From NCBI GenBank assembly GCA_947473125.1, contig CANJDH010000028.1, forward strand, positions 1-46,094: a stretch of 46,094 nt of DNA, in the 5' to 3' direction. The stretch is from Burkholderiales bacterium (GTDB taxonomy: Bacteria > Pseudomonadota > Gammaproteobacteria > Burkholderiales > JAEUOS01). The notes beneath the pieces were generated by a model, which did not search any database, was not told where the DNA came from, and saw only the letters and a list, made by a program, of their open reading frames with translations. Made by a program: the position numbers and the translations under genes. Positions 9,454 to 16,869 of this stretch are shown one piece after another (the stretch's first letter is position 1; each line of letters begins with the position of its first letter).

Positions 9454-9750
9454 TTGACGCTCACCCACGGCGACATTGCGAAAGAGATTCTCACGCTGGC
9501 CAATGACTCGGTCGACGCGATATTGCACGACCCGCCGCGCTTCGGCATTGCCGGCGAATTGTATTCACAGGTGTTTTACGACCAGCTCGCCCGCGTGCTC
9601 AAGCGCCGGGGCAAGCTGTTTCACTACACCGGCACGCCCAACAAGCTCACCAGCGGCCGCGATGTGCCCAACGAAGTGGTGAAGCGCCTGCGGCAGGCCG
9701 GCTTTGTGGCGGCGCCCAATGGCGACGGAGTGTTGGCGGCGAAGAAGTGA
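9454..9750 (+). pseudogene. C-terminal fragment A of a COG2521-like methyltransferase
   Basis: A 98-codon frame beginning at TTG with no proper start. It matches by eye the C-terminal half of the predicted class I SAM-dependent methyltransferase family COG2521: LTHGDIA, then the DPPRF motif (HDPPRFGIAGELYS), the LKRRGKLFHYTGTPNKL strand-turn and a final VVKRLRQAGF helix. The N-terminal AdoMet-binding half (glycine-rich loop) is missing, so it cannot be active. Fragments B (12089) and C (14381) derive from the same gene type. Confidence 0.75.
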
Positions 9751-12008: not shown

Positions 12009-12088
12009 GTTTTTCAGGCCTGCATGAGGGTGGGGGAAGCAAGGGATGGATGCGCGTTGTGTCCATGTTACTCAACCTTGATGCCGGC

Positions 12089-12238
12089 AAGTGCAGGGGC
12101 AAGCTGTTTCACTACACCTGCACGCCGAACAAACTGACCAGTGGCCGCGATGCGCCAAACGAAGTGGCGAAACGCCTGCGGCAGGCCGGGATTGTTGCGG
12201 CGATAAACGGCGATGGGATTTTGGCGGTGAAGATGTAG
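12089..12238 (+). pseudogene. C-terminal fragment B of a COG2521-like methyltransferase
   Basis: About 50 codons ending at TAG 12236-12238 read GKLFHYTCTPNKLTSGRD and then a NEVAKRLRQAGIVAAINGDG end, colinear with the last 50 residues of fragment A at 9454-9750 and about 80% identical. Everything upstream is missing. It abuts the start of the divergent hydrolase gene on one side and the AbiE promoter region on the other. Confidence 0.72.
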
Positions 12239-12354
12239 GCGACATACCCGACGTTGGGACACCGAGCGGGGCGGTGAGCGGAAATCGAAATGGGCGGGTG
12301 GCTAGAGAGGCGCTGTGGTAGCGGGTCTACGTGGCATGCATGGCTGAGAGGCAC

Positions 12355-12375: not shown

Positions 12376-12426
12376 GATGCGTTGTTGAAAAGTGCGATTT
12401 CCCTTAGATGTTCTCTTTTTTACAAC

Positions 12427-12508
12427 GTTCATATTTCGTGAACATACATATTTATTGAACAAATCACCAGTTTAGTTCATAATTTTAATGCGTTCGCAAT
12501 TTATGAAC
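12427..12508. promoter_or_regulatory. nested palindromic operator of the AbiE operon
   Basis: Six GTTC/GAAC half-sites are arranged symmetrically around position 12467.5: GTTC 12427, GAAC 12440, GAAC 12457, GTTC 12475, GTTC 12492, GAAC 12505. The outer pairs form two 17-bp elements of the type GTTC-N9-GAAC (GTTCATATTTCGTGAAC and GTTCGCAATTTATGAAC). A seventh GAAC at 12522 overlaps the abiEi start codon, 17 bp on. AbiEi antitoxins are known to bind inverted repeats in their own promoter, so this is the likely autoregulation site. Confidence 0.7.
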
Positions 12509-12523
12509 GTAATTGAAAAATGA
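12503..12523 (+). other. possible six-codon leader peptide MNVIEK
   Basis: ATG 12503 opens a frame MNVIEK that ends with TGA overlapping the abiEi start codon in the arrangement ATGA. The abiEi start has no strong Shine-Dalgarno sequence of its own, so translation could be coupled to this leader. It may also be chance. Confidence 0.25.
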
Positions 12524-13569
12524 ACGAAGCCACCATCCTCGACCACACCATCGCCGCCCTCGAACCCTTCGGAATCAAGGTGCGGCAGCAAAACCGCCCC
12601 GCGCGCGATACGGGGGCGGACGCTTGGTTGCGCATAGAAAAAGACAAGCAACAAGTCGACTACGTGGTGGAGGTCAAGCGCACGCTCCCAAACGCAACCT
12701 TGGGTGCGGTGGTGGCGCGTTTGCGTCAAACCGCTGCCCGCACCGGGCGCCAGCCGCTGCTTGTCGCGGGCCACATCACGCCGCCGATGGCGGAGCGTCT
12801 GCGCGCGCTTGATCAGGCCTTTGCCGACACCGCAGGCAACGCCTGGCTCACCGGCCCCGGCCTGCTGGTGATGGTGACCGGGCGCAAACCTGAACAGAAG
12901 CCCAAAGCCCTGCGCGACGAGGGCAAGGCCTTTACCGCGGCGGGGCTGAAGGTGTTGTTTGCACTTATCTGCGATCCGGAATTGGCGGAGGCGCCGCAGC
13001 GCGCTATCGCCACTGCCGCCAACGTGGCCCTCGGCGTGGTACCGGCCGTTCTCGCAGACCTGGAAAAAAAGGGGTATCTGGCGACGGCGGGGCGCCGCCG
13101 CCGCCGTTTCCATCCCAACCGCCGGCTGCTGGACAACTGGGCAATCGCCTATGCGCGCACCTTGCGTCCGAAAACATTGATCCGGTTGGTGTTGCCCGAG
13201 CCATTCGACAACTGGAAGGAATGGAACCCCGGCGAGCACGACATGCAATGGGGCGGCGAGGCGGGCGGTGCCCTGCTGACTGACTACCTGCGTCCAGGCG
13301 AGCTGACGGTTTATGGGGACAAGATTCCGGGCACCTGGATGGCACGGCGCAAAATGCGCACGCCCCAACCGGGCGGCGGAACGCAATTCGTGGAATTGCG
13401 CAGGCGCTTTTGGGGCAAGACCCTGAAGCACCCGGAAGGCGTGCCGGCGGACATCGTGCCGCCCGCACTGGTCTACGCCGATTTGCTGGCGACGGGCGAC
13501 GGGCGCTGCATCGCCACCGCGGAACTCGTATATGAAACCCATCTCGCTGGACTTTTCCCAACGCACTGA
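12520..13569 (+). CDS. abiEi: type IV TA antitoxin/regulator, AbiEi family (long form)
   Basis: A 349-residue protein. The N-terminal ~130 residues look like a restriction-endonuclease-like fold: VDYVVEVKR gives an E51-x-K53 pair, followed by PLLVAGHITPPMAERLR and DTAGNAWL, a pattern typical of the long AbiEi_2-type proteins. A winged-helix segment follows (VALGVVPAVLADLEKKGYLATAG, residues ~170-195), then a C-terminal AbiEi domain (~215-345). It should neutralise and repress the AbiEii toxin whose gene overlaps its 3' end by 38 bp. The upstream half-site array is the probable autoregulatory target. Whether the ExK pair is catalytic cannot be told. Confidence 0.85.
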   Translation: MNEATILDHTIAALEPFGIKVRQQNRPARDTGADAWLRIEKDKQQVDYVVEVKRTLPNATLGAVVARLRQTAARTGRQPLLVAGHITPPMAERLRALDQAFADTAGNAWLTGPGLLVMVTGRKPEQKPKALRDEGKAFTAAGLKVLFALICDPELAEAPQRAIATAANVALGVVPAVLADLEKKGYLATAGRRRRRFHPNRRLLDNWAIAYARTLRPKTLIRLVLPEPFDNWKEWNPGEHDMQWGGEAGGALLTDYLRPGELTVYGDKIPGTWMARRKMRTPQPGGGTQFVELRRRFWGKTLKHPEGVPADIVPPALVYADLLATGDGRCIATAELVYETHLAGLFPTH

Positions 13570-14377
13570 ACTCGCCGTCGAAGCGCAGGCCATCGCCGCG
13601 GTTTCGGCGGTGGCGCTGCCGATGGACGTGCCGTTGTTGATCGTTGGCGCGTTCGCGCGCGACCTGCACGTTCGTTACCGTTTCGGCAAAGACCCGGAGC
13701 GCGTTACCGAAGACATCGATCTTGCGGTGGCCGTGCCGAGCTGGTCCGCGTTTAATACCCTGCGCGAGGGGCTGATTGCTTCGGGGCAATTCAGTGGTCA
13801 GCCTGCGGTCTTGCATTCACTGCGGCATGCCAGCGGGCTGGCGGTCGATCTGGTGCCGTTTTCGGGCGTGGAATCCGCCGAGCGCCGCATTGCCTGGCCA
13901 CCTCGTGGCGAATTCGTGATGGATGTGTTCGGATTTCAGGAGGCGCAAGTCACGGCGCATCCCATCAGCCTGCCTGGCAATGTGCCGGCCAGGCTGATTT
14001 CGCTGCCGGCGCTTGCCATACTCAAGCTGGTGACATGGAAAGACCGCCACTTCAGTGCACCGCTCAAGGATGCGCACGATTTGATGCTGATCGTCGGGGA
14101 GTATCTCGCGTTTGGCAATGTGGATCGCCTGTGGACCGAATTCGCCGATTGGACTGCGGAAGAGAGTTTTGACTACGAAGATGCCGGAGCACGCATGCTC
14201 GGCCGCGACATGCTCGCTGTGCTAGACCGGCGTGGCGTGGAGCGCATCGGCGCCATCCTCGCCGCCGAGACAGATGAGGGGAGCCCCGGCATACTCGCAA
14301 ACGCAATGCGCTCGACCGATCCGGACAAGGCGCGCAAACTGCTTGCAGTTCTCTACCGAGGTCTGTTGGAAATCTGA
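13532..14377 (+). CDS. abiEii: type IV TA toxin, AbiEii/AbiGii-family nucleotidyltransferase
   Basis: A 281-residue protein. Nucleotidyltransferase motifs are intact: VGAFARDLH (residues 38-46), TEDIDLAV with D61 and D63 as the metal ligands, VDLVPF with D106, and the C-terminal pair K165 (LAILKL) and D180-x2-D183 (KDAHDL). AbiEii toxins transfer GTP or other NTPs and are thought to block tRNA or other RNA, causing reversible growth arrest and phage abortive infection. The start ATG 13532 lies inside the abiEi frame, consistent with coupled translation. All motifs expected of an active toxin are present. Confidence 0.88.
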   Translation: MKPISLDFSQRTELAVEAQAIAAVSAVALPMDVPLLIVGAFARDLHVRYRFGKDPERVTEDIDLAVAVPSWSAFNTLREGLIASGQFSGQPAVLHSLRHASGLAVDLVPFSGVESAERRIAWPPRGEFVMDVFGFQEAQVTAHPISLPGNVPARLISLPALAILKLVTWKDRHFSAPLKDAHDLMLIVGEYLAFGNVDRLWTEFADWTAEESFDYEDAGARMLGRDMLAVLDRRGVERIGAILAAETDEGSPGILANAMRSTDPDKARKLLAVLYRGLLEI

Positions 14378-14380
14378 CTA

Positions 14381-14500
14381 TCGACGCTCACGCACGGCGA
14401 CATTGCCGGGCACATCGTCACACTGCCGAGCGACTCGGTCGACGCTTTCCTGCATGACCCGCCGCGCTTCGGCATCGCCGGAGCTTTGCTGGGGCGGTAA
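14381..14500 (+). pseudogene. middle fragment C of a COG2521-like methyltransferase
   Basis: This frame begins 3 bp after the abiEii stop. It reads STLTHGDIAGHIVTLPSD then SVDAFLHDPPRFGIAG and stops at TAA 14498-14500. It matches the first 40 residues of fragment A (9454). Fragments B and C are complementary parts of the gene, but B lies upstream of C, with the AbiE operon between them. Confidence 0.72.
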
Positions 14501-14515
14501 TTCCAAGTAGAATGC

Positions 14516-14546
14516 ACCCATATGTCGCAATATGGGTACCCATATT
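14516..14546. promoter_or_regulatory. VapB-type operator over the antitoxin start codon
   Basis: Three alternating copies of an octamer occur: ACCCATAT (14516-14523), ATATGGGT (14530-14537), ACCCATAT (14538-14545). The last two fuse into a perfect 18-bp palindrome AATATGGGTACCCATATT that contains the ATG at 14532. This is the likely binding site of the ribbon-helix-helix antitoxin. Confidence 0.7.
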
Positions 14547-14780
14547 AAAACCACGATCGAAATCTCCGACACGCTTTTCCTTCAGGCAAAGCGCCAGGCG
14601 GCCAAGAGTGGCACCACGCTGCGTGCCTTGATCGAGCAAGGGCTGAAGCAGGCTCTGAAAGACAGCGCCCAGGCACCGGCACACCAGCCGCGCGATGGCC
14701 GCGTGAAAGGCAAAGGCCTGACGCGCGAGGCCCGCAGCGCCGGCTGGCGGGCAGTGCTGGATGCGGCCAACGAGCGGTGA
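14532..14780 (+). CDS. vapB: VapB-type ribbon-helix-helix antitoxin
   Basis: An 82-residue protein. The N-terminus (HIKTTIEISDTLFLQAKRQA) is a typical DNA-binding ribbon followed by helices (GTTLRALIEQGLKQAL). The basic C-terminal tail (ending GWRAVLDAANER) would wrap the toxin. The start codon sits inside the operator palindrome, so translation and repression sites overlap. It overlaps the toxin gene by 4 bp (GTGA). Confidence 0.88.
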   Translation: MGTHIKTTIEISDTLFLQAKRQAAKSGTTLRALIEQGLKQALKDSAQAPAHQPRDGRVKGKGLTREARSAGWRAVLDAANER

Positions 14781-15214
14781 TCGCGGTCGACACCAACCTT
14801 CTGGTCTACGCCCATCGTGCCGACCATGAGTGGAATGACGCGGCACACGCTTGCCTCAACAACTTGGCAGCCAGCCGCGCCGCATGGGCGATTCCCTGGC
14901 CCTGCGTGCATGAATTCATTGCCATCGTTACGCGCCCCAAAATATTCAACCCGCCTTCCACCCTGAAGCAGGCACAAGCACAGGTGGAGATCTGGATGGA
15001 ATCACCTAGCCTCAGCCTGATCGGCGAAGCGCCCCAGCATTGGGCCACGCTGGCGAAACTGGCCACCCAGGCGAAGGTGCAAGGCGGCGCGATCCACGAT
15101 GCGCGCATTGCGGCGATCTGCCTGGACCACGGCATCAGTGAGCTATGGACTGCCGATCGGGATTTTTCGCGGTTCCCGGGGCTGCGGGTGCGCAACCCGC
15201 TGGTGGAGAGCTAG
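14777..15214 (+). CDS. vapC: PIN-domain toxin, VapC family
   Basis: A 145-residue protein starting with GTG inside the antitoxin stop (GTGA overlap). The PIN acidic residues are visible: D5 in IAVDTNLLVYAH, a Glu in CVHEFIAIV, an Asp in IHDARIAAIC and the Asp pair in TADRDFSRF. PIN toxins are Mg-dependent ribonucleases, usually cutting tRNA or rRNA. The length and motifs are complete, so it is probably functional together with the upstream antitoxin. Confidence 0.92.
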   Translation: MIAVDTNLLVYAHRADHEWNDAAHACLNNLAASRAAWAIPWPCVHEFIAIVTRPKIFNPPSTLKQAQAQVEIWMESPSLSLIGEAPQHWATLAKLATQAKVQGGAIHDARIAAICLDHGISELWTADRDFSRFPGLRVRNPLVES

Positions 15215-15625: not shown

Positions 15626-16168
15626 ATGAACCGCTCAAAATCCAATCCACAGATCGTCCTGCGCCCGCAAGACGTGGTCATGCTGTTGCGGCTTTCGCTT
15701 GAATCAGGCGCGCCGCCCACCTATGCCACGCTCGCGCAGGAACTAAGCCTGACGGCCTCCGAAGTGCATGCCGGGCTGGAGCGCGCCACGATGGCGCAGT
15801 TGGCCCGCAAGGATCAAAGCGGCAAAGCCTTCGTGGTGCGCGAGGCGCTCAAGCTCTTTTTACTGCGTGGGGCGCGCTATGCCTTTCCGGCCACGCGCGG
15901 TGAGGCAACGCGCGGCATGCCCACGGGATACGCAGCGGCGCCGCTCAAGGACAAAATTGTCCAGCCCAACGAGCCGGCGCCGGTCTGGCCGCACAAGAAC
16001 GGGCAGGTGAGGGGCATGGCGTTTTATCCCCTCTACCCCACGGTGCCGGAAGCAGCCGCACGCAACCCGGCCCTCTACGAATTGCTCGTGCTGTTCGATG
16101 CGATCCGTGGCGGCAGCATGCGTGAACGCGCGCTTGCCTCGCAGATGCTTGAAGAACGGCTCGCATGA
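15626..16168 (+). CDS. winged-helix regulator, putative antitoxin of a nucleotidyltransferase pair
   Basis: A 180-residue protein. ATG 15626 has GAGGTG 5 nt upstream. Residues ~14-62 form a MarR/IclR-like winged helix (PQDVVMLLRLSLESGAP, then TYATLAQELSLTASEVHAGL). The C-terminal part (~80-178) has no recognised domain but holds a Trp/Pro-rich segment (APVWPHKNGQVRGMAFYPLY) that could contact the partner. It overlaps the nucleotidyltransferase gene by 4 bp (ATGA), and two palindromes bracket its promoter. I infer an autoregulating antitoxin, analogous to AbiEi but of different sequence and half its size. Confidence 0.75.
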   Translation: MNRSKSNPQIVLRPQDVVMLLRLSLESGAPPTYATLAQELSLTASEVHAGLERATMAQLARKDQSGKAFVVREALKLFLLRGARYAFPATRGEATRGMPTGYAAAPLKDKIVQPNEPAPVWPHKNGQVRGMAFYPLYPTVPEAAARNPALYELLVLFDAIRGGSMRERALASQMLEERLA

Positions 16169-16869
16169 ACCCCAACGACCCCAACGTGGTGTTGCTCGAG
16201 TTGGTGGCCAAGCGGCTCGGCGCAAAGCTGCGCGAAGACCTGGTGTTCGTCGGTGGTGCCGTTGCGGGTTTGATGATCACCGATCCGGCTTTGCCAGCGA
16301 TTCGCCCGACCGAAGATGTCGACCTGATCGTTCACGCCTCGGCGCTGGTGGATTACCACCGCATTGAAAAGGCGCTCGTAAAGCAGGGGTTCGCACACGA
16401 CATGAGCGCCGCAGCGCCGGTGTGCCGCTGGCGCGTCGACAACGTCGCGGTGGATGTCATGCCCACGCTCGAAAAAATTCTCGGATTCTCGAACCGCTGG
16501 TATCCGCTGGCGCTACAAACAGCGACGAAAGTTGCACTGCCGAGTGACACAACCATCCGGCTGGTACAGGCGCCAGTTTTTATTGCCACCAAGCTGGAGG
16601 CCTTTGCCGGGCGCGGCAACCATGATCACCTGTTCAGTCATGACCTCGGTGATCTGCTCTCGGTTGTGGATGGCCGCGATTCCCTGGTTGACGAATGTCG
16701 CCAGAGCGATCCCGCGTTGAGAACCTATTTGCGAGACTGGTTCCAGCAATTTCTGGCCACGTCTGCGTTTCTGGACGCCTTGCCGGGCCATTTGCCGGGC
16801 GATCCTGCCAGCCAGGAGCGCCTGCCCGACCTCGAAGAGAAGTTGCGTCGCCTGGCCCAATTGAGCTGA
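16165..16869 (+). CDS. nucleotidyltransferase-fold protein, putative toxin
   Basis: A 234-residue protein. Pol-beta-superfamily motifs are visible: FVGGAVAGL (G30-G31), TEDVDLIV with D51 and D53, VDVMP with D97, K143 in FIATKLEAF and an HDLGDLLSVVDGR segment with D160. This is the AbiEii/MenT-like arrangement, so it could be an NTP-transferring toxin acting on RNA. It differs from the AbiEii protein at 13532 in length and sequence. The ATGA overlap with the winged-helix gene supports a two-gene toxin-antitoxin operon. Function is inferred, not shown. Confidence 0.78.
   Translation: MNPNDPNVVLLELVAKRLGAKLREDLVFVGGAVAGLMITDPALPAIRPTEDVDLIVHASALVDYHRIEKALVKQGFAHDMSAAAPVCRWRVDNVAVDVMPTLEKILGFSNRWYPLALQTATKVALPSDTTIRLVQAPVFIATKLEAFAGRGNHDHLFSHDLGDLLSVVDGRDSLVDECRQSDPALRTYLRDWFQQFLATSAFLDALPGHLPGDPASQERLPDLEEKLRRLAQLS

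Follow-up and report, generated by a model that had tools for sequence, protein, structure and literature searches.

What is the array of GTTC and GAAC half-sites that precedes the abiEi gene in this window (the whole stretch of DNA analysed, 46,094 nucleotides), and which protein reads it? The first-pass annotation described six half-sites as one nested dyad, with a seventh over the start codon, and took the whole for an AbiEi operator suited to co-operative looping or oligomer assembly. Our analysis indicates that the array is very probably an AbiEi operator, and that its unit is instead a module of four half-sites, present twice.

A four-hexamer module in front of abiEi

The seven half-sites are all present where the annotation had placed them, and it is also right about the 82-bp span (12427–12508), the mirror axis at 12467.5, the pair of GTTC-N9-GAAC elements and the recurrence of half-sites at 17 bp. 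With an eighth half-site (Table 1), GTTC stands at 12410, 12427, 12475 and 12492 and GAAC at 12440, 12457, 12505 and 12522. Our data demonstrate that the array is two exact copies, 65 bp apart, of GTTC-N13-GTTC-N9-GAAC-N13-GAAC: two tandem 53-bp palindromes, each built of four TGTTCA-like hexamers whose starts are spaced 17-13-17 and which form two direct pairs 17 bp apart, opposed across a 13-bp inner dyad. The mirror symmetry about 12467.5 arises because any duplicated palindrome is symmetric about its midpoint. The last hexamer of the proximal module overlaps the abiEi start codon (12520–12522). Shuffle tests rule out a chance origin: eight GTTC/GAAC words fall in the 141-bp array, where 5,000 dinucleotide shuffles average 1.19 and never exceed 5, and the 400-bp region around the gene start has two exact quads, where the mean over 5,000 shuffles is 0. 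No further exact quad occurs elsewhere in the 46-kb window.

Table 1. Coordinates of the array, the predicted promoter, the genes and the phage modules (positions in the window unless an accession is given)
Feature	Position	Strand	Remarks
Eighth half-site, GTTC	12410..12413	+	mirror partner of GAAC 12522
Distal operator module (predicted)	12409..12461	.	word-free score 22/24; 22/24 against TGTTCA x4
Distal module hexamers	TGTTCT 12409-12414, CGTTCA 12426-12431, TGAACA 12439-12444, TGAACA 12456-12461		
Proximal operator module (predicted)	12474..12526	.	word-free score 22/24; 19/24 against TGTTCA x4
Proximal module hexamers	AGTTCA 12474-12479, CGTTCG 12491-12496, TGAACG 12504-12509, TGAACG 12521-12526		
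Predicted -35, TTGAAC	12455..12460	+	overlaps last half-site of distal module
Predicted -10, CATAAT	12478..12483	+	overlaps first half-site of proximal module; 17-bp spacer
abiEi-type antitoxin/repressor gene	12520..13569	+	349 aa; PF09952 AbiEi_2 at residues 200-342
Codons of helix 160-167, turn and recognition helix 173-183	12997..13068	+	residues 160-183, with R161, L171, G172; computed from the 12520 start
abiEii-type nucleotidyltransferase gene	13532..14377	+	281 aa; PF08843, 33.2 bits, cut-off 22.5
phi17:2 module	KC821609 88100-88152		
Solitary phage module	KC821632 87647-87699		
Solitary phage module	KR136259 47901-47953		

Conservation upstream of orthologues was the point on which the annotation had staked its reading, and the module is found at 58 of 69 PF09952-type loci. 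Homologues were drawn from 150 relatives (12 matching AbiEi, P0001), 369 genomes of the class (22 with PF09952), 398 of the phylum (6), 399 of the order (38), one genome contig and 32 plasmid records, 22 of which were used; six weak order-genome matches (G951, G1026, G121, G1024, G1106:C334 and G941) are not among the loci. The 17-13-17 spacing was first noticed in the initial locus set and then scanned for with no assumed word, scoring four hexamers in the order direct-direct-inverted-inverted over a grid of 399 spacings (19 by 21). In the 48 upstream regions scanned, 17/13 ranks first of the 399, its best score averaging 21.15 against a grid mean of 17.76 (sd 0.38), neighbouring spacings such as 17/11 and 17/15 being the same sites shifted by one base, and it ranks first again in 21 later loci (21.19; grid mean 17.91, sd 0.36). 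Seventeen of these 21, a set that includes L084, a copy of L002, have a module scoring at least 21 at 17 or 18 bp. Scores of 22 or more occur in 28 of the 48 regions against 0.02% of dinucleotide shuffles at one spacing, where 1.2% of shuffles reach 20 and 0.09% reach 21. These results demonstrate that the spacing is conserved.

The 58 loci are those scoring at least 20 out of 24 with an outer spacing of 17 or 18, and 54 of the 69 score at least 21; these counts are inflated because close relatives are included (L002/L084, L019/L020, L059/L105 and L065/L107). The outer spacing is 18 bp, not 17, in nine of the 58, a variant recognised post hoc and seen again in L086 and L087. Eleven loci lack a module scoring at least 20, although L073 carries one farther upstream, before an interrupted frame, and L079 one spaced 17-13-16. 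Ten further plasmid loci comprise seven with modules and three without, and hosts of plasmid loci with a module include Bacteroidota, Gammaproteobacteria and one cyanobacterium. Seven loci were excluded from the 69, five as remote homologues (L011, L012, L013, L014 and L016) and two as fragments (L041 and L058); they reach at most 19 without half-site-like words, apart from L016, which scores 20 on an unrelated AT-rich word, so the rule does not extend to remote homologues. The same genome (G000) carries a second PF09952 gene, 38% identical, at C25:17328-18308 (L015). Its two modules have the same word and lie 79 bp apart; cross-talk between the two operons is possible.

By consensus match, TTGAAC-N17-CATAAT is the only promoter-like pair on the + strand. 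It keeps an identical frame in five of the seven loci with a 65-bp period; its -35 lies at the corresponding place in L004, L077, L095 and L098, and L010 has TTGAAA-N17-TATAAT there. A single module stands at 35 of the 58 module-bearing loci. In the 22 loci with two, 63 to 187 bp apart, the distance is preferred, not fixed: 13 lie at 63–68 bp, which is about six helical turns and would put the modules on one face, as might be expected if the mirror dyad about 12467.5 were the functional unit, held in one looped or oligomeric complex. However, a promoter with a distal -35 and a proximal -10 accounts equally for the preferred spacing, so that the favoured distance may be as much promoter geometry as contact between modules, and the other nine double loci lie at 74 to 187 bp. 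The single modules and the variable distance lead us to reject the six-site dyad as the unit; a complex of that kind seems unlikely to us, and co-operative looping is unsupported here.

Hexamer variation and the AbiEi winged helix

The protein encoded behind the array has an AbiEi_2 domain scoring 93.1 bits (cut-off 21), and abiEii lies directly downstream, overlapping abiEi by 38 bp. Both features agree with the PF09952 branch of AbiE, a type IV toxin-antitoxin system, as does the winged helix of the model described next. An AlphaFold2 model of P0001 built from six sequences (pLDDT 84 overall; a single-sequence model, pLDDT only 35, was unusable) consists of an alpha/beta domain (1–120), a disordered linker (122–133), a winged helix (about 138–203) and a C-terminal domain. 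In the model the winged helix comprises helices 140–151, 160–167 and 173–183 with wing strands 187–197; R161 lies within helix 160–167 and residues 171–172 immediately precede helix 173–183. Its best winged helix-turn-helix matches, FadR (Z 6.9) and CAP (Z 6.8), are middling, as are the resemblances of residues 1–120 to the PD-(D/E)xK nucleases EndoMS and PaqCI (Z up to 8.5). Three residues that would fit the PD-(D/E)xK motif, D34, E51 and K53, are present in 53, 48 and 46 of the 69 sequences, respectively, and the antitoxin may carry a nuclease-like N-terminal domain (window 12520–12879) in which this triad is largely conserved. Residues 228–349 give a weak fold match to the nucleotidyltransferase ANT(2'')-Ia (Z 6.2), the fold class of the partner toxin. 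No related solved structure was found for P0001 among 20 matches up to E 1 (best 0.057, nearly all on the helix-turn-helix), and Foldseek on the model gave no match at E 0.001 or better. PADLOC gave no hit to P0001 and a single weak model to P0002, NCBIfam no match over cut-off, and PHROGs a single match at E 0.083.

Around the pair, two pieces (12060–12240 and 14378–14490) resemble by eye parts of the ORF at 9454–9750, as though a broken copy of this gene enclosed abiE. A small ORF (14532–14780) and a PIN-domain ORF (14777–15214; PF01850, 48.4 bits) adjoin and look like another toxin-antitoxin pair. The overlapping ORFs 15626–16168 and 16165–16869 have no Pfam match at E 0.001; by eye the latter reads like a nucleotidyltransferase.

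The hexamer differs between loci (TGTTCA, TGTCCA, TGTACA, TTTTCA, TGTACG, TGTCTA and TGTTTA) and is consistent within a module, a change of word usually hitting all four hexamers together. TGTTCA or CGTTCA accounts for 37 loci, TGTCCA for eight, TGTACA for six and other words for seven. When 334 alignment columns were compared with word position 4 over 57 loci (L084 was omitted as a copy of L002), residue 171 was the column most tied to it (z 12.5; next 6.6). The runner-up adjoins the start codon and partly reflects translation of the last half-site itself (ATGAAC, Met-Asn; ATGGAC, Met-Asp). In 22 of the 57 loci this half-site shares bases with an in-frame start candidate, and in many loci its overlap with the start codon dictates residue 2 of the repressor (Asn or Asp).

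H171 occurs in six of the eight loci with C at position 4 (the other two have N and V) and in none of the 49 others (Fisher p 8e-7, loci treated as unrelated); among the 40 T loci, 38 have L or I at residue 171, and the A loci are mixed (L 5, N 2, V 2). Residue 171 alone is insufficient to fix the letter, since L171 occurs both with A4 (five loci) and with T4. Wherever word position 2 is G (55 of 55 loci), residue 161 is R; in both T2 loci it is K or N. In the ten plasmid loci fetched after the rule had been drawn, residue 171 (H or L) predicts the letter in 5/5 and residue 161 fits in 7/7, two of these test loci (L105 and L107) being near earlier ones; four AbiEi genes on viral contigs also obey it. 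On the tree the C class requires at least three changes, so the link between residue 171 and the word is not one inherited event, and H171 accompanies TGTCCA in two separate parts (L060/L103; L002, L005, L086, L090 and L092). Histidine reading G and arginine reading G are chemically ordinary. The co-variation itself is demonstrated, and it would provide a first two-residue DNA-recognition rule for PF09952 AbiE antitoxins, one that single substitutions can test.

A conserved module whose words co-vary with residues 171 and 161 of the helix-turn-helix points to AbiEi autoregulation. On this comparison of sequences, we put at about 85% the probability that the array serves as the AbiEi_2 antitoxin's autoregulatory operator, read by one winged helix per hexamer and repressing the operon. 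Each hexamer would be read by one AbiEi winged-helix domain, R161 reading G2 and residue 171 reading word position 4. From four equal words that change together we infer that one kind of domain reads each, hence about four protomers per module, and about eight may occupy the whole promoter; in the form of these four reading domains per module, the oligomer assembly suggested by the annotation would stand. The distal module would cover the -35, and the proximal module the -10, the start site and the start codon, and because of this coverage plentiful AbiEi would exclude RNA polymerase and shut the operon, which would reopen when AbiEi is lost. The two modules may also co-operate.

Copies of the module in bacterial genomes and viral contigs

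Is the module confined to abiE operons? The exact GTTC quad has 13 occurrences in the 369 class genomes, spread over 10 of them; 11 precede PF09952 genes and two fall within long open frames. The reversed control pattern occurs once. With up to three mismatches, 120 phylum genomes contain only three sites, all at the two PF09952 genes of G000. Viral contigs carry the GTTC quad in at least 120 stretches; among the matches listed, an AbiEi gene is present in 2 of 120, and 109 of 120 carry the expected T/A at no fewer than six of the eight free flanking positions. The full TGTTCA quad likewise occurs in at least 120 viral stretches, which form 61 flank clusters among the matches listed. Viral controls gave 3 (16-13-16), 6 (18-13-18, two at AbiEi genes), 3 (TGTACA) and 3 (TGTCCA), and the scrambled word gave 0 in viral contigs. 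Among the perfect viral modules listed, 119 of 120 have no detected AbiEi gene in the stretch (L200 has one), and since at least 119 of the 120 sites lack an adjacent AbiEi gene, the module is not exclusive to abiE operons.

These viral copies, together with the predicted status of the operator, are what would favour a host regulator other than AbiEi as the protein bound to the array. Against that reading, changes of word follow residues of the AbiEi helix-turn-helix, and the bacterial quads lie mostly at PF09952 genes (the 11 of 13 places and the three phylum sites above); we hold another regulator to be quite improbable and retain AbiEi as the probable reader of the abiE array.

Where do the viral modules lie? 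A tRNA or tmRNA gene stands within 15 bp of 28 of the 120 listed (10 of the 61 clusters), and the rest are found before an ORF (28), in other intergenic positions (59) or inside ORFs (5). The modules of viral loci L113–L328 almost always lack an AbiEi gene in the stretch, and some occupy exactly the space between two tRNA genes. The cultured Cellulophaga phages phi17:2 and phi4:1 match at 24 of 24 letters, their module sitting 3 bp away from each of tRNA-His and tRNA-Leu within an array of more than 15 tRNAs, and Polaribacter phage P12002L matches at 23 of 24. No module was seen in the tailed-phage stretches near RcXuper, RpAliso and the uncultured record LR745206, nor in the stretches of MT835486 and phage phi19:1. 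Positions between tRNA genes, and palindromes able to pair in RNA, might suggest that the array is an RNA structure or another kind of repeat, such as a terminator or a mobile repeat, and no protein site at all. The words, however, co-vary with a DNA-binding helix, the N11 spacers show an AT-rich pattern, and half of the module would be untranscribed because the array straddles the predicted promoter, so that we find this reading scarcely credible. Viral spacers share the AT-rich stretch (positions 7–11) with bacterial operators and differ at other positions, phage DNA being AT-rich.

A phage-encoded reader near the viral sites is weakened as a candidate: with one locus taken from each of the 61 flank clusters, in stretches of up to 15 kb that hold 930 ORFs, no protein family occurs in more than three clusters. 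A search of viral contigs by peptide pattern found no relatives of P0001, and an AbiEi homologue occurs in one of 40 whole viral records. Since many records are fragments, a reader could be encoded elsewhere in those genomes. Because the neighbours of the viral modules are so varied, we lean towards a role in trans, the modules perhaps binding a host protein for which AbiEi is the candidate. We tentatively propose, as a possibility we rate somewhat below even, that unrelated phages use their perfect, solitary operators to engage host AbiEi, either as a decoy drawing it off the abiE promoter or as a gate for phage genes. Such a gate would let phage genes, spare tRNAs included, respond to AbiEi levels, and in either case this would be a DNA-encoded counter-defence that needs no protein; if host AbiEi does bind, phages would manipulate or sense an antiphage toxin-antitoxin system with 53 bp of DNA. 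In the accessible parts of the literature, tRNA is a substrate of related nucleotidyltransferase toxins (MenT/AbiEii, MenT1), and nothing relevant on phage copies of such sites was found there.

Comparison with described AbiE operators

AbiEi autoregulation through inverted repeats is reportedly covered by Hampton et al. 2018, and in S. agalactiae it is established. We take PF09952 to be the Pfam counterpart of COG4861, and the abiEi-abiEii pair described here most likely belongs to the COG4861-COG4849 branch. In that branch a COG4861 gene, a predicted regulator, precedes the nucleotidyltransferase gene COG4849, according to the available portions of four sources (PMC3985639, PMC7319586, PMC3968373, PMC11375011). 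In the accessible text of papers naming COG4861, we found no operator for the COG4861/PF09952 branch, nor did we find a solved structure for it. The PF09952 AbiE branch would gain a defined, predicted operator, through which AbiEi-controlled sites can be found from sequence alone, and this is also the route to the phage copies.

The annotation held that described AbiEi operators are two inverted repeats. This is true of Streptococcus agalactiae, where, in the accessible text, two inverted repeats lie over the -35, -10 and +1 and the antitoxin represses (Dy et al., 2014, PMC3985639); the same text mentions similar repeats upstream of other abiE loci. It is not true of Rv2827c-Rv2826c of M. tuberculosis, an autoregulated AbiEi-type antitoxin system whose operator, in the portion of the paper available, spans the promoter with two inverted pairs of 23-bp repeats, four repeats in all, lying between -1 and -131 relative to the start and bound by Rv2827c with negative co-operativity (Beck et al., 2020, PMC7319586). 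A multi-repeat AbiEi operator had therefore already been described.

As far as these partial texts go, the S. agalactiae operator is organised as 23-3-23, whereas here 23-bp arms stand 7 bp apart in two such pairs. In the S. agalactiae arm TGTTGCTTTTATACCACAAATAT the first hexamer has no second copy 17 bp on, unlike those of the modules here. The S. agalactiae AbiEi belongs to COG5340 and has an N-terminal winged helix-turn-helix, whereas in the protein studied here the modelled winged helix is central (about 138–203), behind a 120-residue PD-(D/E)xK-like domain. The likeness to Rv2827c, again judged from part of its description, is that the arm TGTTCA-N11-TGTTCA is also 23 bp long and that there are also two pairs. 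The gaps differ, being 13 bp within and 4 bp between pairs for Rv2827c and 7 and 12 here, as do the families, COG5340 for Rv2827c and PF09952 for our AbiEi. Finally, in this comparison by description, the Rv2827c operator is presented as 23-bp repeats, whereas the arms here resolve into pairs of equal hexamers.
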